This document shows positions 27,606-58,687 of a stretch of DNA of 64,000 bases, piece after piece (position 1 is the stretch's first letter; every line of letters starts with the position of its first letter). A model generated the notes under the pieces. That model was not told the DNA's origin and searched no databases. It was given only the letters and a program-made list of their open reading frames with translations. Made by a program: the position numbers and the translations under genes. The stretch lies in the NCBI GenBank assembly GCA_014859965.1, contig JACZKQ010000108.1, positions 1-64,000 on the forward strand. The letters are read 5' to 3'. This DNA is from Phycisphaerae bacterium. GTDB taxonomy: Bacteria > Planctomycetota > Phycisphaerae > Sedimentisphaerales > Anaerohalosphaeraceae.

Positions 27606-27864
27606 AATATTCTCCTCAGATAACAGAATGCTGCAAGTTTAACATACTCCGGGCTAAAAAGCGATTCCCGGTCTATGGAAAGTGGCGAACAGGTGCGAAT
27701 GGACACATAAGGGGCTTGAAATCTCGTCGGAATTGGCCATAATCGAACTTTTTGCGTGAATCCGCGTATATTTTTTTCCACAGCTTTGGCTGTTCTGTCC
27801 GCCATTGATCTGGCCCAGGACCAAAGAAAACCATGATTTAACCGGAATCTGGAGGCTTTACGAG

Positions 27865-28854: not shown

Positions 28855-28895
28855 TCTCGCCGCCGTTCACAGAGAAGAACCAGAGAAAGTCTTAA

Positions 28896-29771: not shown

Positions 29772-29773
29772 TA

Positions 29774-31891: not shown

Positions 31892-31906
31892 TGAGGTATT
31901 GCGGAT

Positions 31907-32923
31907 ATGCCGCGGCTTGGTAATTATGATGCTTTATGGCTGCTGTTTGCGGTGGTGCTTGTTCTGGGGCCGGCCTACGCGTGGAACTTTTGGCGCAAGG
32001 CCAAAGCGCTCAGGGGTCTGGCGGCGGCGCATCTGCTGGCGCGGATCAATGTGTCGGTGAGTCGGCGGCGGCAGGCGGTCAAGGCGGCCATGCTTGTGAT
32101 CGCATTTGTCCTGACAGTGATCGCTTTGAGCCGGCCGATATCGAACCCCCGGCCGAAGGAGGTCCGCCGCAAGGGACGGGACGTGGCGATCCTTCTGGAT
32201 GTGTCGCGGTCTATGTTAGCCGAGGACATCCGGCCGAATCGCCTGGAGCGGGCAAAGATCGCCATTGGGGACATGATGACGCAACTGGCGGGCGACCGGA
32301 TTGCTATTGTGACGTTTGCAGGCGATTCGACCGTGCGGTGTCCGCTGACGACGGATTATGCGTTTGTGCGGATGGTGCTCGATTCCATAGGCACTGAGAG
32401 CACACCGTTAGGCGGCACCCGCATCGGCGATGCGATTCGCGATGCGACCAAAAAGGTGTTCGACGAGGAATCGCGAGACTTTCGCGATGTGATTTTAATT
32501 ACTGACGGCGAAGACCATGACAGCTTTCCCGTCGAGGCCGCGGAGGTCGCAGGCGGCGTGGGGATACGCATTATTGCGATCGGACTGGGCGACGATGGGA
32601 CGGGCGCCCCCATCCCGGTCGTCGGAACTGACGGCCGAAGGACGTACTTGGAGTACGACGGCGAGCAGGTGCGGTCGAGGCTCGATGCCGCCACCTTGCA
32701 CCGGGTCGCGCTGGCGACGCCGGGTGGGCGGTTCGTGCAGGTGACGCCGCAAACAACGTTCAATCTGGATGAGATCTATGATTGGCTGGTCGCCTCGGCG
32801 CAGAAACATGAGCTTGAATCGGGGACGGTGGTGCAATATGATGAGCATTTTCAGCTCTTTCTGGCGGCGGCGGTGGTTCTGATCTTCCTGGAGGCATTGG
32901 TCAGTGAACGTAAAAAAGTATAA
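31907..32923 (+). CDS. batB: BatB-like von Willebrand A membrane protein
   Basis: The 338-residue protein starts 15 bases after batA. Helices at about 7-24 and 57-75 and a C-terminal one at about 305-325 anchor it, and the von Willebrand A domain has LLDVSRSMLAEDI (DxSxS), GGTRIGDAI and LITDGEDHDSF, so the metal site is intact. It is likely to form a complex with BatA and the TPR protein. Its last 20 bases overlap the start of the next gene. Confidence 0.9.
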   Translation: MPRLGNYDALWLLFAVVLVLGPAYAWNFWRKAKALRGLAAAHLLARINVSVSRRRQAVKAAMLVIAFVLTVIALSRPISNPRPKEVRRKGRDVAILLDVSRSMLAEDIRPNRLERAKIAIGDMMTQLAGDRIAIVTFAGDSTVRCPLTTDYAFVRMVLDSIGTESTPLGGTRIGDAIRDATKKVFDEESRDFRDVILITDGEDHDSFPVEAAEVAGGVGIRIIAIGLGDDGTGAPIPVVGTDGRRTYLEYDGEQVRSRLDAATLHRVALATPGGRFVQVTPQTTFNLDEIYDWLVASAQKHELESGTVVQYDEHFQLFLAAAVVLIFLEALVSERKKV

Positions 32924-34061
32924 GGCATTGCTTACGACGAGCCTGGTTGTGCTTGCCTCATGCGGCGTGCGTGCGGAGTCGGTGCGAAAACTGGTGGGAC
33001 AGGGCAACACCCTTTACGCCCAACAGAGGTTTGATCAGGCGACGAGCAAGTACGACGCAGCACTGAAGGTGCAGCCGGAATCGCCTCAAGTCAAGTACAA
33101 TAAAGCCAATGCAGCATATCGACAGAGGGATTTTGATTCAGCGATCGCCTTGTATGCGGATACCGCGTCTCGAAGCGGCGACCCGGAACTGGCGGCGAAA
33201 GCCAAATACAATCTCGGCAACAGCTATTTCAATCGAGGCCTCGAACGGCAGAGTGAGAGCCCTGAGCAGGCTGTCGAGGCGATTCGCCGGGGCATCGAAC
33301 AATGGCGCGACGTGCGGGATATGCAACCGGGCAATGAAGCGGCGGCGAGGAATATCGAAGTGGGCCGGCTGCTGATTAAGAATCTGATGGAGCAAATCGA
33401 AAAGCAGAAGCAGCAGGCGCAGCAACAGCAGCAACAGCAGGAGCAGGCCAAAGAGCAGTTGGAGCAGCTCCTGCAGGACCAGCAGGACCTCGCCGGCGAG
33501 ACGGAGAAGAACCGGAAGGAGCAGCAGGAAGGTCGGCAGTCGCCCGAGCAGGCGGCGCAGAAGAATCAGGAACTCGCCGAGAAGCAATCTTCGCTGCAGG
33601 AGCAGACGCGGCAGGCGATGGAGCAGATGCAGCAACAGCAGGAAGATGGTAGTCCACCTTCGAGCCAGATGCAGGAGGCCGCCGAGGATCTTGCCAAGGC
33701 GCTTAAGCCCCAGCAGGAAGCGGCCGAGCAACTGAAAGAGTCGCAGTTGTCCCAAGCCAAAGAGTCGCAGGACAATGCCGCAGAGCAGATTCAGAAGGCG
33801 CTGGAGAAGATGTCTCAGAAGGAGAATGCTGCGGAGCAGGAGCCGTCGCAGGAGCAAGGGGACCCATCGCAGCAGCAGCAGGAATCCACGCAGCCCGCCG
33901 GAGAGCCAGAGCCTTCCGAGGGGGAAGATGGCGACCCGCAGGCCCAGAAAGCGGATGCCGCACAGGCGACCGTCGAGGATATTCTCAGTAAGGAAGAGAA
34001 GGACCGCATGAATCGGCGGGTGCTGATTCGGGGCCATCAAAAAGTGGAAAGGGACTGGTGA
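32904..34061 (+). CDS. batC: BatC-like TPR protein with a glutamine-rich coiled coil
   Basis: The 385-residue protein starts at a GTG at 32904, which has GGAGG 10 bases upstream and overlaps batB by 20 bases. A signal peptide (1-24) precedes about three tetratricopeptide repeats (residues 28-135: LVGQGNTLYAQQRFDQATSKYDAAL and following). Residues about 150-355 are strongly enriched in Gln and Glu and should form a long coiled coil; CAG-rich DNA encodes part of it (33405-33460). BatC-type proteins pair with BatB. The tail ends with a basic segment. Confidence 0.88.
   Translation: MNVKKYKALLTTSLVVLASCGVRAESVRKLVGQGNTLYAQQRFDQATSKYDAALKVQPESPQVKYNKANAAYRQRDFDSAIALYADTASRSGDPELAAKAKYNLGNSYFNRGLERQSESPEQAVEAIRRGIEQWRDVRDMQPGNEAAARNIEVGRLLIKNLMEQIEKQKQQAQQQQQQQEQAKEQLEQLLQDQQDLAGETEKNRKEQQEGRQSPEQAAQKNQELAEKQSSLQEQTRQAMEQMQQQQEDGSPPSSQMQEAAEDLAKALKPQQEAAEQLKESQLSQAKESQDNAAEQIQKALEKMSQKENAAEQEPSQEQGDPSQQQQESTQPAGEPEPSEGEDGDPQAQKADAAQATVEDILSKEEKDRMNRRVLIRGHQKVERDW
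33405..33460 (+). repeat. CAG/CAA-rich stretch coding poly-glutamine
   Basis: A run of mostly CAG and CAA codons inside batC encodes a Gln-rich piece of the coiled coil. Such repeats can change length between strains. Confidence 0.6.
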
Positions 34062-34062
34062 C

Positions 34063-35847
34063 GTGAGGGCGTGCTTCGCTGCAATCATGTTTTGTTTGAG
34101 TGTCGCTACACTGGCGCAAGTTGCGGCTGCGCAGGTGACCGTGGCCGCCCAGGTCGACACGTCCAAGCCCATCTATGAAGGTGAGCAATTCGCATACTAC
34201 GTGATCATCGAGGGCGACAACAAGCCGGGCACGGTCGATTTGGAGCCCTTGGCGGCGTACCGGCCGGCGGCCATGGACGGCCAAAGTTCGACGCTCAATT
34301 TCAACGGCCGCGTAACGCACCGGTATATTATGCAGTTCGCGTTGTCGGCCCCTGAGGCGGGGCTGTTGCGACTGCCGCCGCTGAAGGTGACGGTCAACGG
34401 CAAGGTCTACACAACCAACGGGGTCAACGTGAGCGTTACCAAGCCGGGTTCTACGGAGAAAATCGATGTCGAAGTCGAGCTGCCGGTGACGCAGTGCTAC
34501 CTGGGTGAGCCGGTGCCCGTGACTGTGCGGTGGTTCGTCTGGCTCAGCGAAGCAAGGGGCATGGGGCAGGTCGTGTTCAACGTGCCGTTTCTCAACAGCG
34601 ACCGGTTTCTGGTCGAGGACGCCGACGATACGGCGGTCGGGCAGGAGACCACGATGATTAACGGCCAGCCGGTGAGGCTGCATCAGAGGCAGGTGAAACA
34701 CAATGGCGTGGATTCATTGGAGGTGTCGTTTACGAAGATACTGATCCCGCGCAAAACCGGTGCCGTGCAGATCGAACCGGTAACTGTGTCGGCGAACCTG
34801 ACGGTGGGATATACGCGCGGAGTCTGGGGCTCGGAGCGCAAGTATGATCGTTTTGTTACGCGATCCGAGCCGCTGGCGCTCGGCGTGCTGCCGTTGCCGC
34901 AGGAAGGGCGCCCGGCGGATTTCTCCGGCCTGGTGGGAAGGTACACGATCGCCGCTTCAGCTTCGCCCACCTCGGTGAACGTGGGCGATCCGATCACGCT
35001 GACAGTCCGCGTCGGGGGCAGCAGGTTTCTCAAATCCGTGCAGCAGCCCGATCTGGCGTCGGTGGCGGGCTTTGCGGATGATTTCAAGATGTCGACGGAG
35101 CGCGATCGAGGCACAGTTGAAGGCGGGTTCAAGATATTCAGGCAGATGCTCCGGGCCAGGCACGACAAGGTCAGCGTGATTCCTCCGATTCCGTTGTGCT
35201 ACTTCGATGCCGAGAAGGGCAAGTATGTGACGATTCACAGCGAGGCGATCAAACTGGAGGTTGCGGCGACGCGCGTCGTGACGGAAGCCGATCTCGAGGG
35301 ATCTGATTTCATCCGGTTTGGCCGATCGGTCGAGGCGGCACAGACCGGCCTCAGCGCCCATTTCGAAGGGCTGGAGGCATTGAAGGACCAGAGTTTCTCG
35401 CCGCTGGCGGCCTTGATCGCTCCCGGCTATGTTCTGTTGTGGGGCGGTCCGCTGATGATGCTTGTTGTCAGCGGGATCGTCAAGGTCTCGACTCACAACA
35501 CGCCGGAAAAGATCGCCGCCGCACGCCGGCGAGCAGCATTGAAAAACGGCATACGGGCTGCAAAACGGGCAGGCCGGCGGAGCGGATCGGAGGCATGCCG
35601 GATGTTCGCCGCGGCAATGAAGCAGTACGCAGCCGACAAGTTCAACCGCTCCGCCAGGTCGCTTACGGCGCAGGACTGCTGCGAATTACTTGGCGAGGCG
35701 ACCGTCGATCCGGATGCGGCGGCCGCATTCGGCCATATGATCGAGCGGTGCGAGACGGCAACCTACAGTGGTGCGGAAATCCAGGAGGCCGTCGATGCAT
35801 GCAGCGTGATCGAGTTGATGCGGACGGTGGACAGGGGGCTCAGATGA
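34063..35847 (+). CDS. batD: BatD-like oxygen-tolerance protein
   Basis: The 594-residue protein starts at a GTG with GGGA upstream, two bases after batC. A signal peptide (1-23) is followed by repeated beta domains of the BatD family (ISKPIYEGEQFAYYV-like opening, SNVNVGDPITLTV-like motifs), a transmembrane helix at about residues 455-475, and a C-terminal cytoplasmic helical region of 110 residues. BatD proteins are large extracytoplasmic subunits of the Bat system. The stop overlaps the next start by four bases (ATGA), a sign of translational coupling. Confidence 0.9.
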   Translation: MRACFAAIMFCLSVATLAQVAAAQVTVAAQVDTSKPIYEGEQFAYYVIIEGDNKPGTVDLEPLAAYRPAAMDGQSSTLNFNGRVTHRYIMQFALSAPEAGLLRLPPLKVTVNGKVYTTNGVNVSVTKPGSTEKIDVEVELPVTQCYLGEPVPVTVRWFVWLSEARGMGQVVFNVPFLNSDRFLVEDADDTAVGQETTMINGQPVRLHQRQVKHNGVDSLEVSFTKILIPRKTGAVQIEPVTVSANLTVGYTRGVWGSERKYDRFVTRSEPLALGVLPLPQEGRPADFSGLVGRYTIAASASPTSVNVGDPITLTVRVGGSRFLKSVQQPDLASVAGFADDFKMSTERDRGTVEGGFKIFRQMLRARHDKVSVIPPIPLCYFDAEKGKYVTIHSEAIKLEVAATRVVTEADLEGSDFIRFGRSVEAAQTGLSAHFEGLEALKDQSFSPLAALIAPGYVLLWGGPLMMLVVSGIVKVSTHNTPEKIAAARRRAALKNGIRAAKRAGRRSGSEACRMFAAAMKQYAADKFNRSARSLTAQDCCELLGEATVDPDAAAAFGHMIERCETATYSGAEIQEAVDACSVIELMRTVDRGLR

Positions 35848-39755: not shown

Positions 39756-42700
39756 TCATTTTTCCTGATTGTTTGGCAGCCCGGGTGTGGGTTCACCTGC
39801 CTGCCAGTTAATGACATCGTTTCCGTATTCGGCGGCCGCCCTGCGGTGCAGGGCATGTCCCGAACCGTCGGCCGAGGCCGGCCAGGGGTCGTCGCCTTCA
39901 GGGTGCGAACCGTCGCTGTAGATGACCCGGTCCACGCGGATATACTGCCGCACCCCGCTTGCGTTGACGTCGCCGGGTTTCGAAAGCTCGATTCGCTCGC
40001 CGGCGTTGTTGAGAGAGCCGCTGGACCATTCGAACATCTGTATGCCGGCGGGGGCGGCAAACATGCCGTTGAACGCCGTTCGGTTCTTGACCAGCAGTAT
40101 CCGCTCGCCGGATGCCAGGGTCACCGGCTGGCCCTGCGAATCGAGGATGAAGAGTTCGAATCCCCCGTCGTCTTCTAATTTCCACGGCGCGCCGGTCGTG
40201 AAATCATACAAAACAACCGAATCGTCGCTGATGTTGAGCAGTTCGACATACTCGGCGTCTGCATTGGACCCCGGATTATACATAATCTCGCTGATAACCA
40301 CCGGGCCGACCTTAGGATAGGCGTTCGGCATGCCGGGCGTCTGGCTGCTCAGGGGCACAAAGTTAAACGTTCCGCCGCTCTTCTGATAGCGTCCCAGCGA
40401 CACATCCATCTCGGAAGCGCCGAAGCTTTCCTGGTCAGTGTACCCCGTCATGACGCCGTCACGGCCGCTGGTCAGATAGACGGTTTCTCCGTTTTCGCTC
40501 AGACCGAAGTCAAAGTCGACGCCTTGGCGGAAAACTGCGTAGCCGCCGGGAGAGAGGATTGTGCCAGGCGGAATTTCGCACTTCATGAGATCTTTGCCGC
40601 TGTCGGACAGGAACCAGCCGCCGATATGGATGGTCTGATCGGCTGTCGTGTTATGCAGTTCGATCCAGTCGTTTCCGGTGTCGCTGTGGGCCAGCAGTTC
40701 GTTGATGACGATTGAGCCCAGCAGAGGGATAATGCCTGAATCGTCATGGCCGGGTGAACCGCCGATTTCGGCGCTGGGCCGCCAGCCGGCCTTTTGCCCC
40801 CATACACTCATCTCGGCATTCATCTCATCCTTTATGGTCAGCGAGAATCCCCGGCCATCGGTGATATCGTACCAGGCGTCGGAATACTGGAAATTGTGAA
40901 TTACGTTGCCGACGGCGTCGCAAAGTTCGATACGCTCGCCGCTGTTGTCCAGCGCGCCATTGAATTCGCCTGCGATGTGTCCGTCAAATGCCGGATAGCG
41001 TATGGCGAACGCCGCCTGGTTGCGGACGACGACCACGTAGTCGCCCGAAGGAAGCACCATGTCGCCAAAAGTAAAATCGAGGCCCTGGCTGAAGTGCACC
41101 AGATTCAAATTCACAGGCGACGCACCGATGTTCTTTAATTCGATATATTCGAAGTCGCCTTCGTCATAGGCACTGCCGTCGGGCGCAGCGGCCGGGTGAT
41201 ACATGATTTCGGTGATCCGGAGAACGTCGGCGAGGCCGCCCACGTCGAAGATTGCCGTCTCCAGCGCCGACCACGTGCCGCCGCTGAGCACCCGCGCTTT
41301 GGCGACAACGCTCTTGGTCAAGGTCAGCGGGTCGCTGTAAACCATACCTGCCGCCTCACCCGTAACCGCCTCCCGCGGATCGGCGCCGTCCAGCGTGTAA
41401 TAGATGGTTCCGACGCCGCCGCGATTGGTGATTGCAAGTTGAAAGCCGACCGGCGCCGTGCCGCCGCGCCGGCTCAGCAGGGGTGGGTCAATGGTGGGGT
41501 AATAACCCTGTGCCCTGAGAGAGGCAATGAATTTCTCGCCGTTGCCGGTCATGAAGCCCGGCGAGAGTATTTCGTTTTCGGCAGAGACCCAATCGACGTC
41601 GCGCGTGCGGGTGGGATGGCCGACGGCCTTGCAGGCATCGCCCCAGCGTGCCGACTCGGCGACGACCGCATCGCGAATGTAATTGTTCAGTGACAGAAAT
41701 CGCTCCTTGCAGTTGTCGTCGGTGAGGGCGCCGCCGTTGAACAAGTGCCCATACGATCGATCCGCAAATCGCATCATGAAGTCACTGTTGCGCCGCAGAC
41801 TGTGCCACAAAGCGGGGAGCGTCGCGCCGCCGCTTTTATTGCTGCGGAAGTCGGGATGGACCCAGCCGTTATTATGGCCGTCGCGTGTTGTTTTCCACGC
41901 CCACTCGCCGTCCCACGCGAAGTACATGAACGGCCCGGACACATCATTTCGATTGCCGCCCCACCAGTTGTTGCCCGGCCAGTCGGTTAAGCCCATGTGC
42001 CAGCAAAGCAGCAGGTAATCAATAAAACTGTCGATATTCAGGTATTGCTGCATTTCGGCGTAGTTGGCGGGGTCGGACATATTTTTGTCCTTGAGTGTGC
42101 CTTTCAGATAGTTCCAGCGGGCCGGACTTCCGCCTTTGGCGCCATCGTGGCTGACAGCAAACCAGTCCTCCTTTTCACCGCCCATATACATCGACGTGAA
42201 CCACGCATCGGGCCGTTCGACAGGGTTGTAGAGCCCCCAGTAAAGGCCGTTGATGTACAGGTGGACAAACGTGCCGTGCGAGCCGATGCCCGACATGGCG
42301 ATCTGGCTGTCGCGATACCACTGGTCCTCCGTGTACGTCGTTCGCTCCGGATTCCAGATTCTCGCCCAGGAACGGTTATTGCCGCCGCGAAGCACGATCC
42401 GATCCGCCTCCTCCGCGGCCGAATCGCCGTTGACAGGGGCATCGCGAAACAGCGACGAACGCAGCTTTGCATTGCCGTATTCCGAGCGGAAGTTCAGGCG
42501 CAGCGACCGCTTCATACGGCTGTGGCTGTGCGGCTCAACCCCGCAGTCGGCCTGGACGTTCTTATCCGGATCGGCGGGGTAAATCAACTCCACCGAGGCC
42601 GGCGACTCGCCCGAACCCCAGTAAAACGTGTCCATCGCAGCGCGGCCGGTGACCAGCGAAAGCGTGGGGATATCCGTCAGCGCCTTGAGCATAACGCCGC

Positions 42701-44987
42701 TGTAGGCGCCGCTGTTGACGACCTGCGGGTCTATCTCATAATCGTGCGTTGCATAGGAACTGCCGCCCAGCCAGGTGTTGGGATTAGGATAGCCCGGTAT
42801 TGTGGCGGGCTGGCGAATAACGTCCGCCAGGAAGATGTACGTTTGCGTGTCGATGTGGGTCGGCAGCCAGCCGCTGAGGAATGCCGCCGCGCGAAGCACC
42901 GTAGTGGCTGCAACGGAGATCGGCTCCGTGTAAATCTGGCCGTTCGACTCCGTGGGCCGGGTCCCATCGAGCGTATAGCGGATCGCTGCGCCTGCGGTGG
43001 CGCATGTGATCTCGAGGTCGAAGGGCGCCTCATAGAAGCCGCGATCATGGCTGAACTCGGTATCGGCGACCATGCCCTTATAGGTGCTGCTGTTGGAGGC
43101 TTTGGGCGTGGGCACTGTGAAATACCTGACCTGGAGGTCGGCCGGAGACACTCTTCCTGCGGAAACGTCCGGCACCTGTCGGCCGTAACTGAGGCTGTCG
43201 ATGAGGGTGACAGCATCGGCGGCAAAGAGTGCGATATCGCCTTTGGCCGACGCCAGACTGAATGCTGCGTGTAGCGGCCCTTCGTCGCTCTCGCCGTCGG
43301 CCCAGACCAGCAGATATTCGCCTGGCCCCACGGTTGTTGCTGCCGGTGCGTCCGCCGGAAAGCGCCACTTCTCCGGCTTATCTGCATTGTCGGTCAGGCA
43401 TAAACCGGCCAGGTCTATGGCCGTCTCGCCGAAGTTATGGATCTCGATCCAGTCGTCAAACTCGCCTTTTTCATCGGCCTTAATGCCGATGTTTATCGCC
43501 ATGAACTCACTGATAATCAGGGTCAGCGGCGGCGGCTGTGCATACGCGCCTGTAATTATTATCGACTGGCCGCGGCCGATCTCGATCGGCTTGTCGACGG
43601 GCGCAAGCCAATCATCTATCGCCTTGAAACGGATCACGTGCGGCCCGGGCAGGAGGTCGCCATGCCGTGCGCCGCTGTCGCGCCACGCGCCGTCGATTCG
43701 CCACTGCGCCCCCTGCGCGACCGCCTCGGAAGGTGAGAGGGTGACGGTGATCGAGCCCGTCCAGTTATCCATCCACGCATTGGCCTGGAATGTGAAATCC
43801 GCCATATCGATAGTCGGGTCGCCGACGAGGTTCACGGCCGGCGACGCCGAGAGCCATTCGTCAGCGAGGACCATGAGATCGGCCATGTTCACCTTGCAGT
43901 CGGCAGTGAGGTCGCCCGGCGGGCAGTTCGGCTCGGCGACATTGATCACGACCGTGTCGGAGCCCGCCTGCACGAGTTCATCCCACGCCTCAAGCTTTAA
44001 CTCATAAACGCCGGGGGCCGAAAAGGTGCACCGCGTGGAAGCTAACGAGCTATCGTCGAACAGGACCTCGCCCGTCCCGGAGACCTTCGACCACAGCAAA
44101 GTCAGTTGGCCCAGGTCGTCGGGGTCATCGTCGCTTACCGTACCAGCCAGAATGACGGATTTGGCGAACGGCCAGACAATAGTCTGGTCTTCCCCGGCGT
44201 CGACGGCGGGGGGATTGTTCGGTATCGGCGGCCCGGCCACGGCACAGAAGCAGGAGGGGTCCAGTGTGCCGCTGGTCACATGGATACCTTCGATTATGCT
44301 TCTGTTGGTCAGCGGCGTGCCCGCATCGTCGAATAACTCGGTGACCGCAAATGCGACGGCTGCAACGGGCTGGCCGGCGTTCGGCTGGCCCGACCTGTAC
44401 AGGCCGGTGTTGGACCACTGCGACAGGGTGATGGTCATCGGTTCGCCGAGCACGCCGCCGGAGAGGATTGCGCGCACTTGAACAGCGTCGTTGCCGCCCA
44501 CTTCGAAGATGAAGAAATCGGCATTGTCGCCGTTGGAGTCTCTCCACTTCTCTCGGCCGGCAATCATGGCTATCTTCCATTCGGCATTAGCGCCCGTCAG
44601 ACTCGTGCGGGCGACAAAGTCGTTGAGGTCGAAATTGTCCGCCGCATCGGACCGCGTTCCCAGACTGCCCGTGGCGCTGCCTTCGACAATGTCCGACGTG
44701 CCCAAAGCCAAATCGTTGATCATTACCGTGTATCCGCCTGCGGTGATGCTCTGAAGCATGTAGGGTGGATTGCCGTTGACGCCGGCGTTAACGTAGGTGA
44801 TGGGCATGATGGCGGCATTGCCGGCTGCCTGGAAGAGGGCGGTTAGTTGTACTGCCTGCGTCCCGGCCGCTGACCGGGTCGACAACAGCACTGTGATTAC
44901 TAAAGCCGCGCAGGCACACACTCCCTGCCGGAGCGAGCCCCGTGCAACACCCCTTGTGTAACACGATTCCTGCTTTTTTTTTTTCAC
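39756..44987 (-). CDS. 1743-residue secreted CotH kinase-like / lamin-tail protein
   Basis: The GTG start at 44987 is chosen because GGAGGA lies just upstream and the promoter at 45038-45065 rules out the in-frame ATG at 45086. After a signal peptide, residues about 35-270 resemble the N-terminal domain of the PEP-CTERM protein at 45457 (FEVGGND, VRAILSGG). A PKD-like domain follows (about 275-350), a dockerin-like pair (354-400), a first lamin-tail domain (about 490), a chitobiase C-terminal-like domain (about 665), a CotH kinase-like domain (about 765-1130, FAWDGEWAWK), a second chitobiase-like domain (about 1197) and three more lamin-tail domains (about 1257, 1428, 1567). CotH-type domains in bacteria may phosphorylate proteins or act structurally. 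Confidence 0.88.
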   Translation of the reverse strand: MKKKKQESCYTRGVARGSLRQGVCACAALVITVLLSTRSAAGTQAVQLTALFQAAGNAAIMPITYVNAGVNGNPPYMLQSITAGGYTVMINDLALGTSDIVEGSATGSLGTRSDAADNFDLNDFVARTSLTGANAEWKIAMIAGREKWRDSNGDNADFFIFEVGGNDAVQVRAILSGGVLGEPMTITLSQWSNTGLYRSGQPNAGQPVAAVAFAVTELFDDAGTPLTNRSIIEGIHVTSGTLDPSCFCAVAGPPIPNNPPAVDAGEDQTIVWPFAKSVILAGTVSDDDPDDLGQLTLLWSKVSGTGEVLFDDSSLASTRCTFSAPGVYELKLEAWDELVQAGSDTVVINVAEPNCPPGDLTADCKVNMADLMVLADEWLSASPAVNLVGDPTIDMADFTFQANAWMDNWTGSITVTLSPSEAVAQGAQWRIDGAWRDSGARHGDLLPGPHVIRFKAIDDWLAPVDKPIEIGRGQSIIITGAYAQPPPLTLIISEFMAINIGIKADEKGEFDDWIEIHNFGETAIDLAGLCLTDNADKPEKWRFPADAPAATTVGPGEYLLVWADGESDEGPLHAAFSLASAKGDIALFAADAVTLIDSLSYGRQVPDVSAGRVSPADLQVRYFTVPTPKASNSSTYKGMVADTEFSHDRGFYEAPFDLEITCATAGAAIRYTLDGTRPTESNGQIYTEPISVAATTVLRAAAFLSGWLPTHIDTQTYIFLADVIRQPATIPGYPNPNTWLGGSSYATHDYEIDPQVVNSGAYSGVMLKALTDIPTLSLVTGRAAMDTFYWGSGESPASVELIYPADPDKNVQADCGVEPHSHSRMKRSLRLNFRSEYGNAKLRSSLFRDAPVNGDSAAEEADRIVLRGGNNRSWARIWNPERTTYTEDQWYRDSQIAMSGIGSHGTFVHLYINGLYWGLYNPVERPDAWFTSMYMGGEKEDWFAVSHDGAKGGSPARWNYLKGTLKDKNMSDPANYAEMQQYLNIDSFIDYLLLCWHMGLTDWPGNNWWGGNRNDVSGPFMYFAWDGEWAWKTTRDGHNNGWVHPDFRSNKSGGATLPALWHSLRRNSDFMMRFADRSYGHLFNGGALTDDNCKERFLSLNNYIRDAVVAESARWGDACKAVGHPTRTRDVDWVSAENEILSPGFMTGNGEKFIASLRAQGYYPTIDPPLLSRRGGTAPVGFQLAITNRGGVGTIYYTLDGADPREAVTGEAAGMVYSDPLTLTKSVVAKARVLSGGTWSALETAIFDVGGLADVLRITEIMYHPAAAPDGSAYDEGDFEYIELKNIGASPVNLNLVHFSQGLDFTFGDMVLPSGDYVVVVRNQAAFAIRYPAFDGHIAGEFNGALDNSGERIELCDAVGNVIHNFQYSDAWYDITDGRGFSLTIKDEMNAEMSVWGQKAGWRPSAEIGGSPGHDDSGIIPLLGSIVINELLAHSDTGNDWIELHNTTADQTIHIGGWFLSDSGKDLMKCEIPPGTILSPGGYAVFRQGVDFDFGLSENGETVYLTSGRDGVMTGYTDQESFGASEMDVSLGRYQKSGGTFNFVPLSSQTPGMPNAYPKVGPVVISEIMYNPGSNADAEYVELLNISDDSVVLYDFTTGAPWKLEDDGGFELFILDSQGQPVTLASGERILLVKNRTAFNGMFAAPAGIQMFEWSSGSLNNAGERIELSKPGDVNASGVRQYIRVDRVIYSDGSHPEGDDPWPASADGSGHALHRRAAAEYGNDVINWQAGEPTPGLPNNQEK

Positions 44988-45037
44988 GGCTCCTCCAGCG
45001 GTCCGGTCAGTCTGTCCGCCATCACGCCTGCAACTGA

Positions 45038-45065
45038 AGTATACATCAAACCGATAGACAAACAA
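45038..45065 (-). promoter_or_regulatory. Predicted promoter of the giant CotH gene
   Basis: On the minus strand, TTGTTT and TATACT are separated by 16 bases. The -35 box begins one base after a TGCGCAAAATGGG repeat. The transcript would start about 45 bases before the GTG at 44987. Confidence 0.6.
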
Positions 45066-45066
45066 T

Positions 45067-45101
45067 CCCATTTTGCGCACGTGCAATGCCCATTTTGCGC
45101 A
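45067..45101 (-). promoter_or_regulatory. Paired direct-repeat operator, probably XylR/AraC type
   Basis: On the minus strand, TGCGCAAAATGGG occurs twice (45101-45089 and 45079-45067), without a mismatch, 22 bp from start to start. The copy nearer the promoter abuts the -35 box. The same layout is found before the gene at 53149. Two direct repeats two helical turns apart beside -35 are the usual binding pattern of AraC-family activators. Confidence 0.7.
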
Positions 45102-45456: not shown

Positions 45457-46146
45457 ATGAAGAGATTCAAAGAAACGGCAGTTGTGGTACTTGCTGCGCT
45501 GGCGTGTGTCGGCGCTGTTCGGGCGGACATGCTTACAGGATTGCCGGGTGTGGTTGTCAGTAATGGTGAGATCGTGAGCATTGAGTACGCCGGGACCACG
45601 TATGGTGTGGCCGATTTGGGTCTGGGGGTCACGACGCGGTGGTATATCGTGGATGGGGTCGACACGCTTTGGGTCGATGGTGATCCTGCCCCGGCGGCGA
45701 CGATAACCACGACGTCAAACCCCAAGGTGGGCGATATTGGCGCCAAGGCGGACAATTTTATTTTCAATGTAGGCGCCGCCAATGACATATCGTCTATAGA
45801 CGGCATCAACTTCCAGCAGACGATCTTTCCTTTTCTGACGAATACCATCTTCGTTTTCGAGCGGGGCGGAAATGACGCCGGGACGGTCCAGGCCATTCTG
45901 CCTGGTGGTCAACTGGGAGAGGTGCTGACACTCACGGCAAACGGGGCGCCCTATGCCAACACGGGAGTCGGGGTGAACGGTGCAAATGCCTTTGGCTACG
46001 TTTTGGAAACGAGCGTTCCTGTCATGGGACTCAGGATTACGGCGTCAGGCCATGATGCGCTGAGCATTTCTGCGGTTCCCGAGCCGGCCTCGATGACGCT
46101 GCTGGCGCTGGGCGGCCTGGCTTTGCTGAGGCGCAGAGGCTGTTAA
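45457..46146 (+). CDS. PEP-CTERM sorted exported protein
   Basis: The 229-residue protein starts at the ATG at 45457 with GGAGG 9 bases upstream. A signal peptide (1-23) is followed by one domain of about 180 residues. The C-terminus carries a PEP-CTERM signal (VPEPASMTLLALGGLALLRRRG), which is cut by an exosortase for surface attachment; no exosortase gene lies in the window. The domain is about two-thirds identical by eye to the first domain of the protein at 56483 (AGTTY, GVDTLWVDGDPAPAAT, FVFERGGND, AILPGGQLG) and is more distantly related to the giant CotH protein. I do not recognise it as a named family. A terminator follows at 46169. Confidence 0.85.
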   Translation: MKRFKETAVVVLAALACVGAVRADMLTGLPGVVVSNGEIVSIEYAGTTYGVADLGLGVTTRWYIVDGVDTLWVDGDPAPAATITTTSNPKVGDIGAKADNFIFNVGAANDISSIDGINFQQTIFPFLTNTIFVFERGGNDAGTVQAILPGGQLGEVLTLTANGAPYANTGVGVNGANAFGYVLETSVPVMGLRITASGHDALSISAVPEPASMTLLALGGLALLRRRGC

Positions 46147-46287: not shown

Positions 46288-47343
46288 ATGGAAGAATACA
46301 ATATTGCAGTTGTGCCGGGTGACGGGATTGGCTGGGAGATCGTTCCGGCCGGGGTCGAGGTGATCAAGGCGGCGGCGAACGGTGACTTCGCCGTCCGTAC
46401 CGAGGTGTTCCCCTTCGGCGCCGGCTACTTTAAGGAGCACGGCGACTTTCTGCCGCCCGACGGCATGGATGTCCTGAGGCGGTTCGACGCGATCTATTTC
46501 GGCGCCGTGGGACTGCCGGATGTTGACGATACACTGCCCGCCCGCCTGTTCACATTCAAGGTTCGCAAGGCTTTCGACCAGTACGTCAATTATCGTCCCA
46601 CACGGCTGCTGCCGGGTGTGACGTCGCCGCTGGCCGGCAAGACGCAGGAGCATATCGACTTCATTGTCATCCGCGAGAACACGGAAGGGGAGTTCGTGCA
46701 GTGCGGCGGGTTTTTCAGCCCCGACAGCCCCGAAGGTATGGCGATGGACACCAGCATCTTCACGCGCAAGGGCATTGAGCGGGTGGCGCACTATAGCTTC
46801 CGGCTTGCCCGCAGGCGACGCAGGAAGGTGACCAGTATCACGAAATCCAACACGCTCATCCATTCGCTGGCTTACTGGGATCGCGTTGTCGGCGAGGTGA
46901 GCGGCGCCTATCCCGACGTCGCCTTCGACAAAATGTATGTGGACAATGCCTCGGCGAATTTCGTGCTGCGGCCGGAGCGGTTCGACGTGATCCTGACGAC
47001 GAATTTTATCGGTGATATACTTAGCGACCTCGGCGGGGCAATTATGGGAAGCCTTGGCCTGGGGCCCAGCGGCAACATCAACCCCGAGAAGACGTATCCT
47101 TCGATGTTCGAGCCGATCCATGGTTCGGCGCCGGATATTGCCGGCAAGGGCATCGCCAATCCCATCGGGGCGATCTGGTCGGGCGCGCTGATGCTCGAAC
47201 ACCTTGGGCAGCCGCAGGCCGCCGGGCGAATCGTCGCCGCAATTGAGCAAACGCTTCAGCAGGGCGTGCTGCCCGTCGATCTGGGCGGCCGGGCCCAGAC
47301 GCGGCAGATCACCGATGCCATATTAAAGAACCTCAAAGCCTGA
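46288..47343 (+). CDS. Tartrate/isopropylmalate-type beta-decarboxylating dehydrogenase
   Basis: The 351-residue protein is a member of the isocitrate and isopropylmalate dehydrogenase family: VVPGDGIGWEIVPA at the start, FGAVGLPDVDDTLPARL, QYVNYRPTRLLPGV (substrate arginines), RENTEGEF, and FEPIHGSAPDIAGKGIANPIGAI (NAD-binding). The wording around FGAVGLPDV matches tartrate dehydrogenases rather than LeuB, so an NAD-dependent oxidation of a 2-hydroxy acid, tartrate or a sugar-acid-derived malate, is most likely. It opens the catabolic cluster and ends six bases before the cyclase-family gene. No ribosome site is near, in line with a leaderless start. Confidence 0.85.
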   Translation: MEEYNIAVVPGDGIGWEIVPAGVEVIKAAANGDFAVRTEVFPFGAGYFKEHGDFLPPDGMDVLRRFDAIYFGAVGLPDVDDTLPARLFTFKVRKAFDQYVNYRPTRLLPGVTSPLAGKTQEHIDFIVIRENTEGEFVQCGGFFSPDSPEGMAMDTSIFTRKGIERVAHYSFRLARRRRRKVTSITKSNTLIHSLAYWDRVVGEVSGAYPDVAFDKMYVDNASANFVLRPERFDVILTTNFIGDILSDLGGAIMGSLGLGPSGNINPEKTYPSMFEPIHGSAPDIAGKGIANPIGAIWSGALMLEHLGQPQAAGRIVAAIEQTLQQGVLPVDLGGRAQTRQITDAILKNLKA

Positions 47344-51754: not shown

Positions 51755-52924
51755 ATGGCCAAAGAACCGAGAGTCATTCTGTTGATCGTGCCCGCCCGGG
51801 CGTTTGACCGAGCGCTGCTGCGCGGCATTGCGCGGTATGCAAACGAGCACGGGCCGTGGACCTTCCTGCGCGAGCCGGCGCATTACAGGCCGATCGGCTG
51901 GAAGAAAAAGGTTTTGGACCGACTGCACAGCGGCCAGGTCGACGGGCTCATCATGCGAGAACCCGAGCGCATCGAGGATATCCTCAAAATGCATATCCCG
52001 GGCATCTGTGCGCCCGTCACGCAGCGCACGGTGGACGGCATGATCAACGTGGTTATCGATAACGAGGCTGTCGGACGAATGGGCGCCGAGCATCTGTTGG
52101 AGCGGGGCTTTCGTCATTTCGCCTATTGCGGATTCGAAGGCATCTACTGGTCTGAAAAGCGGTGCCAGGGATTTGCCTCGCGGATTCGGCAGGCCGGGTT
52201 CAAAGTAGACGTCTACGCGCAGCCCAGATCGCGCGATATTCAAGGTCTCTGGGAAATGGAACAACCCGTTCTTGCCGACTGGCTGCAGGGACTGCCCAAA
52301 CCCGTCGGCCTGATGACCTGCAACGACGACCGCAGTCAGCATGTCAGTGAAACCTGCCATGCCGCGCGATTGCACGTGCCGAACGACATTGCGATCATCG
52401 GCGTGGATAACGACGAATTTGTCTGCGAAATGGCCAATCCGCCGCTTTCCAGTGTTTGCTTAAATGCGGAGGCGATCGGCTATCGTGCGGCGGCGACCCT
52501 CCACGAGGTCATAGCCGGCCGTGCCGTTGAAGACACCACCATTATTGGCGGGCCCACGTACATCGTCGCCCGAAAGTCTACCGATATTATGCTCATTGAC
52601 GACGCCGTGATCGCAAGGGCCCTGCGACACATTCGCCAGAGTACCCATGAGCCGATTCAGGTCATTGATGTTGCCGAGGTGCTGGCCATTTCGCGGCGAA
52701 GTCTCGAACAGCGTTTCCGCAGGGTCGTCGGCAGGTCCGTCCATGAGCAGATCCTGTACGAACGGGTCGACCGTATCATGCGTCTGCTGCTGGAGACGCG
52801 GATATCCATTTCACAAATTGCCCATATTCTTAATTTCTCCAGCACCAAGCAGTTAGACCGCGTCTTCAGCCGCTATACCGGGATGAACCCCTCGGAATAC
52901 CGGAAGCAGTACTGTATTAAGTGA
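51755..52924 (+). CDS. XylR-type AraC-family regulator
   Basis: The 389-residue protein starts at an ATG with AGGAG upstream. It has the XylR layout: an N-terminal LacI-like sugar-binding domain (residues about 5-275, VILLIVPARAFDRALLRGIARYA, and IAIIGVDNDEFVCEMANPPLSSV) and a C-terminal AraC domain with two helix-turn-helix motifs (VAEVLAISRRSLEQRFRRVVG and ISQIAHILNFSSTKQLDRVFSRYTGMNPSEYRK). It likely senses a sugar released from the target glycan. Matching paired operators lie at 53023 and 45067. Confidence 0.93.
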   Translation: MAKEPRVILLIVPARAFDRALLRGIARYANEHGPWTFLREPAHYRPIGWKKKVLDRLHSGQVDGLIMREPERIEDILKMHIPGICAPVTQRTVDGMINVVIDNEAVGRMGAEHLLERGFRHFAYCGFEGIYWSEKRCQGFASRIRQAGFKVDVYAQPRSRDIQGLWEMEQPVLADWLQGLPKPVGLMTCNDDRSQHVSETCHAARLHVPNDIAIIGVDNDEFVCEMANPPLSSVCLNAEAIGYRAAATLHEVIAGRAVEDTTIIGGPTYIVARKSTDIMLIDDAVIARALRHIRQSTHEPIQVIDVAEVLAISRRSLEQRFRRVVGRSVHEQILYERVDRIMRLLLETRISISQIAHILNFSSTKQLDRVFSRYTGMNPSEYRKQYCIK

Positions 52925-53148: not shown

Positions 53149-56100
53149 ATGAGGAGTCTCGCAGCAGCCGCCATCGCAATTATCATCCTTGTTTCCACAG
53201 CCTGTGTCACCGCGACGGAGATTTCCGGCGAACTGAAGATGTGGCACAAGGTCACCCTGACCTTTGACGGGCCGGCCACAAGTGAAAAGGCAACGCCCAA
53301 TCCCTTCATGGATTATCGCCTTGATGTCACCTTTGCCCAGGGCCAGAAGAAATACGTCGTGCCCGGGTATTATGCCGCTGACGGTAATGCCTCAAGCACC
53401 TCTGCCGAGTCGGGTAACAAGTGGCGCGTCCATTTTGCCCCCGACAGCCCCGGGGCGTGGACGTATGCCGTGTCTTTCAGGAAGGGCGTTCACGTCGCCG
53501 TTGCCGACGAGCGCGACGCGGGTGCGTCCGCCGGTTACATGGACGGCGAAACCGGAACGCTTACCATTGCACCGACCGACAAAACGGGCAGGGACTTTCG
53601 CGGCAAGGGAAGGCTTCAGTACGTGGGCAAACATCACCTGCGGTTTGCCGGCACGGGCGAGTATTTCCTCAAGGCCGGCGCCGATGCCCCGGAGAATTTT
53701 CTCGCCTATGCCGAGTTCGATGGTGACTTCAAGACCGACGGCATCAAAGATGACCTCATCAAGACGTGGGAGCCGCACGTCAGGGACTGGAAGCCCGGCG
53801 ACCCCACGTGGCAGGACGGCAAGGGCAAAGGCATTATCGGCGCGATCAACTATCTCGTATCCAAGGGGATGAACGTCTTTTCTTTTCTTCCGATGAATAT
53901 CGAGGGCGACGACCGCAACGTCTTCCCCTATCTCAATTACAAAGAGCGTTACCGCATGGACGTCTCGCGCCTGGACCAGTGGGAGATCGTCTTCGAGCAC
54001 GGCACACGCAACGGCATGTACCTGCACTTCAAGACGCTCGAAAATGAAAATCAGCTTTTGCTCGACAAGGGCGACCTTGGTCCGCAAAGAAAACTTTATT
54101 ACCGGGAGTTGATCGCCCGCTTCAGCCATCACCTGGCGCTAAACTGGAATCTGGGCGAAGAGATCGACAAGGCAACGACGGAACAGAAGGCGGCCTGGGC
54201 CAGCTATTTCGCCACGCACGATCCCTACAAGCATCACATTGTCATCCACAACATGGGTCATCCGCACTACGATCTTCTGGGCGACGCATCCGCGCTGACC
54301 GGTTTTTCTCTTCAGACGAGCAGGCCGGATTTCAGTGAGGTACACGCCCGCACAAGAGACTACATCGACCGGTCTGTGGCCGCGGGCAAGCCCTGGGTCG
54401 TCGCCTGCGACGAGCCGGGCGATGCCAGCTACGCACTGGTGCCCGACGACGTAGACCCTACCCGGGACAACGCACGCAAAAACGCGCTCTGGGGCAATAT
54501 CATGGCCGGCGGTGCGGGCGTGGAATGGTATTTCGGATATAAGCACCCTCACTGCGACCTGCGGTGCCAGGACTGGCGCACGCGCGACAAGATGTGGGAT
54601 CAGAGCCGCTATGCCCTCCAGTTCTTCGACCGCCACAAAATACCTTTCTGGGACATGAAGTGCGAAGATGAGATGACCGCAAATACCGACGATTACGTCC
54701 TTTGCAAGCCCGGCGAGGTCTATCTGGTGTATCTCAAGCACGGCGGCAAAGTAACCGCCGATGTCGAAGAAGGCTCGTTCGCGTGCGGCTGGTACAATCC
54801 CCGCACGAGTGACGGACTCGAAGAACTGCTGCATCAAAGTACTGTAGCCGCGAAGAACAAGGCCGAACTGACGGCGCCCGACGGCAACGACTGGCTGCTC
54901 GTCATACGAGGCCGCGGCAAGCTGAATCTGATCTCGCCTCAAACGCCTCGGCCCCTTGCGCCCGGCGCGGTGCCCACGGCAAAAGGGGCCATCGTGCTCC
55001 AGGCGATCCAGCATTTTGAGATCGTGCAGGGCGGCGGTTTTGTACCTGCGTACAAGGACCAGGCCCATCAGGCCCTGGCCATCAACCCTGATCAACACAA
55101 AGATAAATTTGGCGCCGCCGAAGCCGTTTTCGCAGGCCAGGCCGGCACTTACGATATCACCCTGACCACCATGGCGGAGACCGACGGCGAATCCACCTAT
55201 AAGGTTCTGGTCGACGGCAAGCTCATCGGCGAATTCACCAATCCGCAGACAACGGTCGACTACAAGCCCACCAACAAGACATGGGAGAAAGTCGCCGTCA
55301 ACAAGGATGCGAAGATCCGGATCGAATTCAACAGCGCTACCAACAGCAAAGCCGCACAAGGCGATCGCAAAGCGTACGCCCGCGGCCGCTGGCTTGCTTT
55401 GACGCTGACGCCCGAGGGCGCCGACCCGGCCGCCAAAGCCGCGGAGCCTGCGACGAAACCCGCCAAGCCTGCGGCAAAGCAGCCAGCGCCGTCGTTGAAA
55501 GCCCCCAAAGCTCCCGAAGTGGGCCTTGCCGGCGCCAATGTCGCCTTCGAGGAAAAGGACGGTATCGTGGCCGTCGAAGCCGAAAACTTTATTGAGCAGG
55601 AGGCCACGGGCAAACGCGCCTGGTACATCCACACCACACAGAATACAACGGAGGTCTCCCCCGACGGTGACGGGAATCATTCTGAGACCGCCAGCGGCGG
55701 GGCGTACATCGAAGTCCTGCCCGATACGCGGCGAACCCACGCCGACAAGCTCATCAGCGGCGAGAATTTCTCGAACGAACCCGGCAAAATGGCCGTTCTA
55801 TCATACCCGGTGCGTTTCAATACCCCCGGCCGCTACTACGTGTGGGTCCGCGCGTTTTCGACGGGTCCCGAAGACAACGGCCTCCACGTCGGCATCGACG
55901 GGACCTGGCCCGCATCCGGGCAGCGCCTGCAGTGGTGCGAAGGCAAGCAGTCGTGGTGGTGGGAGAGCAAGCAGCGGACCGAAGCGGAGCATTGCGGCGA
56001 GCCGCATAAGATATTTCTTGACGTCAACGAACCGGGCATGCACCTGATTACCTTCTCGATGCGAGAAGACGGGTTCGAATTCGACAAATGGCTGATGACG

Positions 56101-56163
56101 AAGGACCGCGACTTCAAGCGTCCTTCCGATGCCGGCCCGGCTTCGAGGCTGCTGCCAAATTAG
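53149..56163 (+). CDS. Secreted DUF5060/clan-A glycosidase with C-terminal binding modules
   Basis: The 1004-residue protein starts at an ATG with AAAGGAG upstream. A signal peptide (1-23) is followed by a DUF5060-type beta domain (about 24-145). A TIM-barrel glycosidase region (about 150-500) follows, with acid/base candidates Glu337 and Glu338 in NWNLGEEID and Glu422 in ACDEPGD. A linker rich in Pro and Ala (about 755-785) leads to a last domain (about 800-1000) with a CBM6-like VAVEAENFIEQ start and PGRYYVWVRAFS. The gene is the first after the XylR regulator and carries the paired operator, so it is probably induced by the regulator's ligand. The substrate is unknown. Confidence 0.85.
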   Translation: MRSLAAAAIAIIILVSTACVTATEISGELKMWHKVTLTFDGPATSEKATPNPFMDYRLDVTFAQGQKKYVVPGYYAADGNASSTSAESGNKWRVHFAPDSPGAWTYAVSFRKGVHVAVADERDAGASAGYMDGETGTLTIAPTDKTGRDFRGKGRLQYVGKHHLRFAGTGEYFLKAGADAPENFLAYAEFDGDFKTDGIKDDLIKTWEPHVRDWKPGDPTWQDGKGKGIIGAINYLVSKGMNVFSFLPMNIEGDDRNVFPYLNYKERYRMDVSRLDQWEIVFEHGTRNGMYLHFKTLENENQLLLDKGDLGPQRKLYYRELIARFSHHLALNWNLGEEIDKATTEQKAAWASYFATHDPYKHHIVIHNMGHPHYDLLGDASALTGFSLQTSRPDFSEVHARTRDYIDRSVAAGKPWVVACDEPGDASYALVPDDVDPTRDNARKNALWGNIMAGGAGVEWYFGYKHPHCDLRCQDWRTRDKMWDQSRYALQFFDRHKIPFWDMKCEDEMTANTDDYVLCKPGEVYLVYLKHGGKVTADVEEGSFACGWYNPRTSDGLEELLHQSTVAAKNKAELTAPDGNDWLLVIRGRGKLNLISPQTPRPLAPGAVPTAKGAIVLQAIQHFEIVQGGGFVPAYKDQAHQALAINPDQHKDKFGAAEAVFAGQAGTYDITLTTMAETDGESTYKVLVDGKLIGEFTNPQTTVDYKPTNKTWEKVAVNKDAKIRIEFNSATNSKAAQGDRKAYARGRWLALTLTPEGADPAAKAAEPATKPAKPAAKQPAPSLKAPKAPEVGLAGANVAFEEKDGIVAVEAENFIEQEATGKRAWYIHTTQNTTEVSPDGDGNHSETASGGAYIEVLPDTRRTHADKLISGENFSNEPGKMAVLSYPVRFNTPGRYYVWVRAFSTGPEDNGLHVGIDGTWPASGQRLQWCEGKQSWWWESKQRTEAEHCGEPHKIFLDVNEPGMHLITFSMREDGFEFDKWLMTKDRDFKRPSDAGPASRLLPN

Positions 56164-56482
56164 GATATGTGGCTGCTGCGGAACCAGGAAGCAAACGGCT
56201 GAGCAGCGTTCGTTGGCCAACTGTGGACGCGACACGCGTGCCGACGGTATGATGTCTAATTGTGGAGGAAGATTCATCATGTGCCGAAAGTGGACGGGTG
56301 TGGAGGATCTTGCGGGGAGAAATTACGCAGGTCTCATGGCAGGACCCCCTGTATGAGACTGGAACATGTCCCAATCCCTGCTTCTCTCCGTCCTGTGATC
56401 TGTTAAGGTCGTCAATGGAGAAAATAGCATGAAAACTCAAGTCATTCAATGTGTCCTGCGCTTGTTGGAAAGGAGAGGCCCT
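56164..56482. other. Intergenic region before the LamG/dockerin genes
   Basis: This 319-bp stretch has no recognised promoter or terminator. It contains a tiny open frame with a GGAGG-like site (56279-56356) that is not supported as a gene. Confidence 0.4.
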
Positions 56483-58687
56483 ATGGAAAAGTTATTCAGA
56501 AGAAAGAATGGGATCCTTTTGTGTCTGGTATTGATCTGTTCGCTTGCCTGTGCGGTCCAGGGGGACAACCTTTCGCCGTTGTCGACCATAACGGCCAGCG
56601 GCGGCCAACTTACCAGCCTGACCTACGCCGGAACCACCTATGTCGTCGCCGACGGCGATCTGACTACCGGCACGACGACGCGATGGTATCTTGCCGGAGG
56701 AGTTGAGACGCTCTGGGTGGATGGGGCCCCCGCGCCGGCCGCAACCGTGACCGGGACCTCCGACCCCAAGATCGGCGATACCGGTGTAAAGGCGGATGAC
56801 TTCATATTCAACATAGGAACCGCAAACCACATCTCATCCCTGGATGGGATTGATTTCCAGGAGACGATTTTTCCCTATCGCAGCAAGATGTTCTTTGTCT
56901 TCGAGCGGGGCGGCAACGACAATGGTAGCGTTCAGGCCATTCTGCCGGGCGGTCAACTCGGACCGGCCCTGACGCTGACAGCAAATGGCGCACCCTACGG
57001 CAACACGGGTGTCGCCGTCAACGGCAGTAATGCCTTCGGGTATGTCCTGCAAACCGATGTTCCCGTCGTTGGACTCCGGATCACCGCGTCGGGACACGAT
57101 GCCCTGAGCATTTCGATCCCTACGCGCAATGTGTGGCCCGTGGCGATCAATCCGCTGCCCGACCAGAAGAATGTACCGGCGACCTTGCTCTTCGAGTGGA
57201 CACTGGAGGGGGAAGTGATGCTGGACAGGTACTTCCTCTATCTTGACGAAGACCCGGCCCTTATAGCCGAACCGAATGCCCTCAATGCCGGCGCGTATGC
57301 GATTTTCGGCATGGAGGTCGTCCCCGCGGCGGCAGCCGACCCATATGCGTCCACCCTTATCAGCAACATTGCCGAAGAGACCGTCTACTACTGGAGGATC
57401 GATACGCAAATTCTCGAGCCGAACGAGACCGATCCCAATAGCGGCTCATTTGAAACATCCATTATCGAAGGCCCCGTGTGGCGATTCGAGGGTGTCTCAA
57501 ATACGCCCGAGATTACGACCCAACCCCAGGACCAGTACGTCCTGCCCGACCCGGATACGCATGAGTGGCCGCTGGACGCCCAAGCCGTATTTACAGTGGG
57601 CTTCAGCGCGGGTAAGCCGGTGAAGAGCTATGAATGGATGAAAAACGGGATGCCTCTGATCGTTGACGGCGCCAAGTACGTGGCGACCAGCGATGTGACG
57701 AATCCCGCGGCCTCTTTGACAATGCTGATTATCAACAATGTCGTCGACGCCGACAAAGGGTCCTATTCGGTGAAGATCACGCTCGAAACCGCCACCCAGG
57801 GCTCGGTCATGAGCGACGCCGCCGCCCTGTACGTGGTTTCTGACATTCTCGTACACCGCTGGAGCTTCAACGGCGACTTGTCCGACGCGATCAGAGGCGC
57901 CGATGCGGTCATTGTCGATCCGGATGACGAGAACATCAGCCTCGTGGCGGGTGAGCTGGTCTTTGGCGGTCGCATGGCGGCCGGCGACAACATGAGTTCG
58001 GGTGACCCGAACCTGCATTATGTCGACCTGCCCAACGGCATCATCTCGGCACTGGGCAACCACGCCACCTTTGCGGTGTGGTTCACGCGGGATGCAGCAC
58101 TGGGCCAGGATACTTGGGCCCGGCTGCTGGATTTCGGTCTGCCCACGCCCGATGCCGCACATCCGACGCCGGAAAGCCTCGAAGGGGTTTCCAAGGCCGG
58201 TAACGCAGAGGCGACCTACATCATCATGACGCCGAGCCCGGCCCGCTTCCAGGGTCACGGCCCCGGCGAAACCGTTTTTATCAACGGCGGAACCCAGCCC
58301 GCGGGCGAGGAAATCTGCATGATTGGTTCATGGGATAACGGCAGTTATGATCTGTATATTAACGGCGTCAAGGTCAACAGCACGCCGCAGGTGGCCAATA
58401 TGAAGCTGTCGGACATCAACGATCTGAACAACTGGATTGGCCGTTCGCAGTGGATCGACCCCCTGTTCCGCGGTTCCGTCAACGAACTCCGGATATACGG
58501 AATTCCGATGACTGCCGAGTGGGCCAAAGCCATTTACGAGGCCGGCCCCGACGGTGAAGCGGTCAACCTTAATCCCTGCATGACGCCGAAGGCTTTTGAT
58601 TACAACAACGACTGCGTCGTGGACATGGCGGACTTCGCCATTTTCGCCGCCAGATGGCTCGACTGCGGGCTGCTGATCTGCAATTAA
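56483..58687 (+). CDS. Exported protein with GGND domain, Ig, LamG and dockerin-like modules
   Basis: The 734-residue protein starts at the ATG at 56483 with AAAGGAGAGG upstream, not at the ATG at 56429. A signal peptide (1-27) is followed by the domain shared with the PEP-CTERM protein (about 29-215), a fibronectin-like stretch (about 225-350), an Ig-like domain (about 355-455: TTQPQDQYVLPDPDTHEW), a LamG-like concanavalin domain (about 460-690: VHRWSFNGDLSDAI) and a dockerin-like ending (FDYNNDCVVDMADFAIFAARWLD). The Ig-LamG-dockerin half is closely related to the next gene. Likely a surface carbohydrate-binding protein (inference). Confidence 0.82.
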   Translation: MEKLFRRKNGILLCLVLICSLACAVQGDNLSPLSTITASGGQLTSLTYAGTTYVVADGDLTTGTTTRWYLAGGVETLWVDGAPAPAATVTGTSDPKIGDTGVKADDFIFNIGTANHISSLDGIDFQETIFPYRSKMFFVFERGGNDNGSVQAILPGGQLGPALTLTANGAPYGNTGVAVNGSNAFGYVLQTDVPVVGLRITASGHDALSISIPTRNVWPVAINPLPDQKNVPATLLFEWTLEGEVMLDRYFLYLDEDPALIAEPNALNAGAYAIFGMEVVPAAAADPYASTLISNIAEETVYYWRIDTQILEPNETDPNSGSFETSIIEGPVWRFEGVSNTPEITTQPQDQYVLPDPDTHEWPLDAQAVFTVGFSAGKPVKSYEWMKNGMPLIVDGAKYVATSDVTNPAASLTMLIINNVVDADKGSYSVKITLETATQGSVMSDAAALYVVSDILVHRWSFNGDLSDAIRGADAVIVDPDDENISLVAGELVFGGRMAAGDNMSSGDPNLHYVDLPNGIISALGNHATFAVWFTRDAALGQDTWARLLDFGLPTPDAAHPTPESLEGVSKAGNAEATYIIMTPSPARFQGHGPGETVFINGGTQPAGEEICMIGSWDNGSYDLYINGVKVNSTPQVANMKLSDINDLNNWIGRSQWIDPLFRGSVNELRIYGIPMTAEWAKAIYEAGPDGEAVNLNPCMTPKAFDYNNDCVVDMADFAIFAARWLDCGLLICN

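Follow-up and report, generated by a model that had tools for sequence, protein, structure and literature searches.

Introduction

PEP-CTERM proteins are numerous, and a function is mostly lacking for them. One NCBIfam family, XDP2 (NF041929), is named exosortase-dependent surface protein. Carbohydrate-binding modules (CBM32/F5-8C, CBM_4_9, and HpiC1-like) are exported, shuffled among multi-domain proteins, and appended to hydrolases. DUF5060 proteins (PF16586 with PF12904) are a further family, of putative glycoside hydrolases.

Here, a domain shared by three proteins in a 64,000-nucleotide stretch of DNA from a Phycisphaerae bacterium (the window) is compared with these systems. Like the carbohydrate-binding modules, the domain occurs on putatively exported proteins, is probably mostly β, is shuffled among multi-domain proteins, and is appended to a hydrolase, in this case at either end. 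Unlike them, it has no match to any Pfam carbohydrate-binding module over its own sequence. DUF5060 hydrolases are its partner enzymes, fused or nearby, and the domain lies outside their DUF5060 and Collagen_bind_2 matches. By sequence comparison, the domain is a real, uncatalogued family of about 165-210 residues, apparently exported and remotely related to XDP2. Literature searches returned no paper on exosortase with XDP2 or on PEP-CTERM with dockerin in planctomycetes, and the entries listed by other searches do not describe it.

Results

Three window proteins share one domain

The first carrier, P0001 (229 residues; 45457..46146, + strand), has a signal-peptide-like start, assigned by eye, and a PEP-CTERM match over the Pfam cut-off (23.7 versus 20.7 bits). 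Its domain copy, placed in subtype A by genome search and subtype sorting, spans 45529..46071 (+) and is followed immediately 3' by the PEP-CTERM sorting motif at 46072..46137 (+; 27.8 bits). The genome contains two exosortase genes and 22 PEP-CTERM motif matches over their cut-offs, so P0001 shows the combination by which exosortase substrates were assessed, a motif over cut-off with an exosortase in the same genome. The domain and the PEP-CTERM/exosortase system thus meet in P0001; they differ in that the motif is an anchor rather than a domain and in that other carriers do without it. A stretch of DNA 76% identical to the P0001 PEP-CTERM tail lies at the end of another protein (G000:C114:18988-19052), which shares the tail of P0001 and not its domain.

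The second carrier, P0002 (752 residues; 56429..58687, +, with 56483 fitting as an alternative start), has a subtype A copy at 56570..57121 (+), located by profile search, followed by weak Ig-like matches, LamG, and a dockerin-like tail. The third, P0003 (1776 residues; 39756..45086, - strand), has an N-terminal subtype B copy at 44232..44819 (-) and continues with PKD, a dockerin-like stretch, LTD, CHB_HEX_C_1, and CotH. The P0003 copy has a profile E of 4.0e-91, a value to which P0003 contributes as a row of that profile; a relative outside the profile, L112, is 44% identical to P0003 over 200 residues. The PKD and dockerin-like stretch lies at 43851..44198 (-), the PKD identified by Pfam and the dockerin-like part by eye. 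An earlier note on this DNA had joined the domain to PEP-CTERM, Ig-LamG-dockerin, and CotH/lamin-tail architectures. Pfam bears out PEP-CTERM, LamG in P0002, and CotH with four lamin-tail (LTD) stretches in P0003. The Ig-like matches in P0002 fall below the Pfam cut-offs, and the dockerins, which have no Pfam match in the window proteins, are read by eye.

The similarity among the three copies was measured in both directions. P0001 and P0002 share 136 of 200 residues (68%, E 3e-88), in agreement with the two-thirds identity estimated by eye in the note, and P0001 and P0003 share 23 of 45 (E 3e-8). Searching the 5.28-Mb genome with the 181-residue P0001 domain gave exactly three places at E <= 1, with P0003 at 3.0e-6. 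In the reverse direction, a profile built from P0003 and relatives found P0002 at 3.8e-9 and P0001 at 2.0e-8. These pairwise identities and genome-wide E-values establish the three-way similarity as real, and the likeness to the N-terminal part of the CotH protein, which had been called weak, remains significant in the pair, across the genome, and between profiles. The three copies, the only ones that the genome yielded, are no more than about 13 kb apart. The GC content of the window ranges from 0.564 to 0.607 in 4-kb steps, with no composition break, which neither supports nor excludes transfer of the locus.

The domain forms a family with four subtypes

Relatives were sorted into subtypes A (with P0001 and P0002), B (with P0003), C (in many cases an additional copy at the C terminus), and D. 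The 46 distinct copies compared, after removal of identical duplicates and of the copies shorter than 150 residues in L046 and L068, comprise 22 A, 16 B, 6 C, and 2 D. Profile-profile comparison connects A with B (E 4.9e-12), C (3.1e-21), and D (7.9e-19), B with C (1.7e-10), and C with D (2e-34); the weakest pair, B-D, has an E of 2.2e-5 and a probability of just 52%. The four subtype profiles gave no match at E <= 10 against 1778 reversed ORFs. Four residues do not vary across the 46 copies (G33, E111, G167, and D176); D75, F108, N115, D116, G130, and G174 are almost as constant (> 90%, subtypes weighted equally).

Two profiles were used to follow the spread of the family, A4 (built from A, C, and D) and A5 (P0003 and three relatives). 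The order is represented by 161 genomes, of which the P0001 domain and A5 each matched 20; the union of the two lists, compiled by hand, is 24 genomes, all from one other family apart from the genome of the window. Across 392 genomes sampled from the phylum, A4 found the window's own genome and G312, and A5 found the own genome and four genomes of a distant family, in another class (G298, G312, G339, and G475), each with a subtype B match. The G312 match was borderline with A4 (5e-4) and became a clear subtype B domain at 8e-25 on a later search. A contig search that reaches close relatives only returned two loci. Viral contigs searched with the 181-residue domain, A5, or A4 yielded no relative, and plasmids searched with L112 yielded no match.

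Comparison with XDP2 and known folds

The note had not recognized the domain as a described family. This holds for Pfam-A, which has no match at E <= 1 over the domain region of the three window proteins. It is qualified by NCBIfam, where NF041929 matches the same part of all three, always below its cut-off (E 0.00086, 0.019, and 0.076). Searched against the whole genome at E <= 10, NF041929 finds these three places only. Its matches in relatives are stronger (L050, 4.7e-8; L112, 7.1e-7; G032 hydrolase, 1.4e-6; L117, 1.6e-5), and it reaches the core region of at least 7 of 10 carriers in one set (L045 gave no such match among its best 25 listed) and of 4 of 9 in another. It matches none of L066, L067, L110, or L145-L148.

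These matches would be expected if the domain were simply XDP2. Several observations speak against that identity, which we regard as very improbable: scores reach at most 33.3 bits, far from the curated cut-off of 75; the best stretches are largely limited to model positions about 73-186 of 198; none of the 392 phylum genomes has a match over the cut-off; and the majority of copies occur on proteins other than PEP-CTERM ones. What the two have in common is the matched region with its F..E..GND motif and a PEP-CTERM tail in P0001, in its G032 counterpart, and in L112-L115; what separates them is that scores here are far under the cut-off and that the domain is modular and mostly found in other architectures. 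Since the matches are weak, we read the relationship as probable remote homology, not membership. A further NF041929 match, in G196 (L071), was dropped as chance because the protein resembles a radical SAM enzyme by eye and was missed by the subtype profiles.

PDB searches by sequence with the domain returned chance-level rows or none. Two AlphaFold2 models, built from five sequences, had poor pLDDT values (49.5 and 48.9); the C-terminal half was better and nearly all β, and the domain is predicted to be mostly β-strand. Comparison of the first model with solved structures (VIA-align) gave Z up to 7.3, with GH29 fucosidases first and then CBM32/discoidin domains. The second model gave Z up to 8.1, led by fungal galectin-type lectins, and had no Foldseek match at E <= 0.001. 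Both Z values are usual background. Because the models are poor and their best folds disagree, none of these folds was adopted.

Domain partners and anchors

The domain is joined to PEP-CTERM in P0001, its G032 counterpart, and the subtype B proteins L112-L115, and not in P0002 or P0003. The CotH-type protein L117 has domain B, PKD, LTD, and CHB_HEX_C_1, its contig stopping short of the CotH part, and it is 42% identical to P0003 over 361 residues beyond the domain. Other partners are F5/8 type C, PA14, LamG, CBM_4_9, and HpiC1-like domains. Judged by Pfam, the majority of subtype A carriers are not enzymes. L050, L053, and L063 have two copies each, A at the N terminus and C at the C terminus. 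In L045 (351-2840), domain B, F5/8C, and an ABC transporter ATPase occupy one open frame, possibly a chimeric assembly; that genome is listed with 7% contamination.

Association with a DUF5060 hydrolase

The window genes run from the left as P0003 (-), P0001 (+), an Iso_dh family dehydrogenase (46288..47343, +), a putative cyclase (PF04199; 47349..47984, +), TAL_FSA, an MFS transporter, a GFO_IDH_MocA protein, a regulator (Peripla_BP_3 and HTH_18; 51755..52924, +), a DUF5060 hydrolase (53149..56163, +), P0002, and a LamG protein. The hydrolase has DUF5060, Collagen_bind_2, and GH115_C by Pfam and is probably exported. Neither it nor the distant-class protein L146 has a PDB relative by sequence.

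A related locus is present in G032, a genome of another family, with counterparts of the cyclase (63%), Iso_dh (73%), the hydrolase (68%), the domain-bearing PEP-CTERM protein (56%), CotH (60% over 710 residues), and P0002 (41% over 354 residues). A second DUF5060 protein of G032 is 66% identical to the window hydrolase over 556 residues, and its C-terminal part aligns with P0003 residues 74-412 (45% over 359 residues, E 1e-68). The segment common to the two consists of domain B, PKD, and the dockerin-like stretch. The domain was not found in the CotH protein of G032, which has a signal-like start and a dockerin-like stretch by eye. One block is therefore carried by the CotH protein in the window and by the hydrolase in G032.

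The link recurs in the distant class, where all four genomes carry domain B at the N terminus of a protein with DUF5060 and Collagen_bind_2 that is 35-38% identical to the window hydrolase over about 590 residues; these genomes have 1-2 DUF5060 genes apiece. Together with G032, this makes five genomes in which the domain is attached to a DUF5060 protein. The same fusions bear on whether the domain is an assembly unit, binding a protein partner (its own copy or a scaffold) and so uniting PEP-CTERM, dockerin-type, and enzyme proteins in a surface complex. Copies on differently anchored proteins of a single locus are consistent with such a role, as are the paired copies in L050, L053, and L063. 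In the distant class, however, profile A5 found one copy per genome, fused to the hydrolase. Self-association is disfavored because it needs a partner copy and none was seen there, and an assembly role as a whole appears unlikely.

Adjacency was evaluated in 22 carrier genomes in which the link had not been seen before. The window, G032, and all four genomes of the distant class were left out because their link was already known, and the 40 carrier loci were counted by hand. Five of the 40 loci have a DUF5060 gene within 6 kb, where 0.77 would be expected (Poisson P about 0.001); at 10 kb the count is again 5, versus 1.29 expected (P about 0.01). The expected numbers ignore contig ends. Orthologues of the window hydrolase (64-72%) lie near a carrier on the same strand in G002, G005, G039, and G085, and G002 and G005 also retain Iso_dh (76%) and the regulator (62%). 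The DUF5060 gene of G079, 5.6 kb from its carrier, has no match to the window hydrolase at 1e-8. G002 and G005 are one genus, as are G298, G339, and G475; independent events are therefore fewer than the counts, and the true weight of the adjacency is lower. The DUF5060 gene near the carrier in G002 has one in-frame TGA (G002:C148:59921-60175).

The other 35 loci have no DUF5060 gene within 6 kb, although contig ends may conceal some. This majority, and the great variety of partner domains, would suit a structural spacer or surface-layer filler that has no specific ligand and was spread by free recombination of exported multi-domain proteins. Set against this are the recurrent coupling with one type of hydrolase and the conservation of E111, D176, N115, and D116 in the 46 copies, which exceeds what a spacer needs. 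A passive spacer is less likely because these polar residues are invariant or nearly so, and we consider it quite improbable.

A candidate glycan-binding module

The note had proposed a common ligand or an assembly role. The DUF5060 context narrows this proposal in favor of a glycan ligand. In the reading to which we give about an even chance, a single polysaccharide locus uses the domain as a mobile, glycan-binding-like module on its enzyme, on its dockerin-type proteins, and on those anchored by exosortase. A glycan is favored over a pure assembly role because fusions and gene neighborhoods both lead to a single family of DUF5060 hydrolases, which is not proof. Counting against this reading are the poor models with their background-level fold matches, the 35 loci with no DUF5060 gene within 6 kb, the unrelated DUF5060 gene of G079, and the mostly non-enzymatic subtype A carriers. 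Targeting to a substrate is suggested by the module at either end of the hydrolase, by the same block on a neighboring gene, and by the link to this enzyme across classes.

As a glycan-binding module, the domain would bind the polysaccharide, or fragments of it, that its locus attacks with the DUF5060-type hydrolase. Where the hydrolase itself carries the domain, the enzyme would be kept on its substrate. Secreted multi-domain proteins with LamG, F5/8C, PA14, or CotH, of which some have dockerin-like tails, would gain an extra binding unit. In front of a PEP-CTERM motif, the domain would be subject to sorting by exosortase, and the glycan or the complex may then be held at the cell surface. 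More tentatively, and at somewhat less than even probability, the domain may represent a novel family of glycan-binding modules, present in several formats in one polysaccharide-degrading locus and moving between its genes, with the PEP-CTERM/XDP2-type protein acting as a surface glycan receptor. If so, part of the unexplained PEP-CTERM proteins would gain a function. A domain common to a PEP-CTERM protein and a type of enzyme gives a testable idea of what such a protein holds, and many exported planctomycete proteins for which this region has so far had no match could be named in annotation through the family.

Neighboring genes in the window

A gene for a pseudopilin-like protein adjoins P0003 (38887..39714, -) and is 36-39% identical to genes located by carriers in G002, G005, G039, and G085. 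Pseudopilin-like proteins are a common type, and the presence of this gene beside carriers may be incidental. Farther to the left, by eye, the genes at 27805-35847 resemble a MoxR/DUF58/Bat operon, and 23620-25200 encodes an apparently exported protein with a lamin-tail-like start and a dockerin-like tail.
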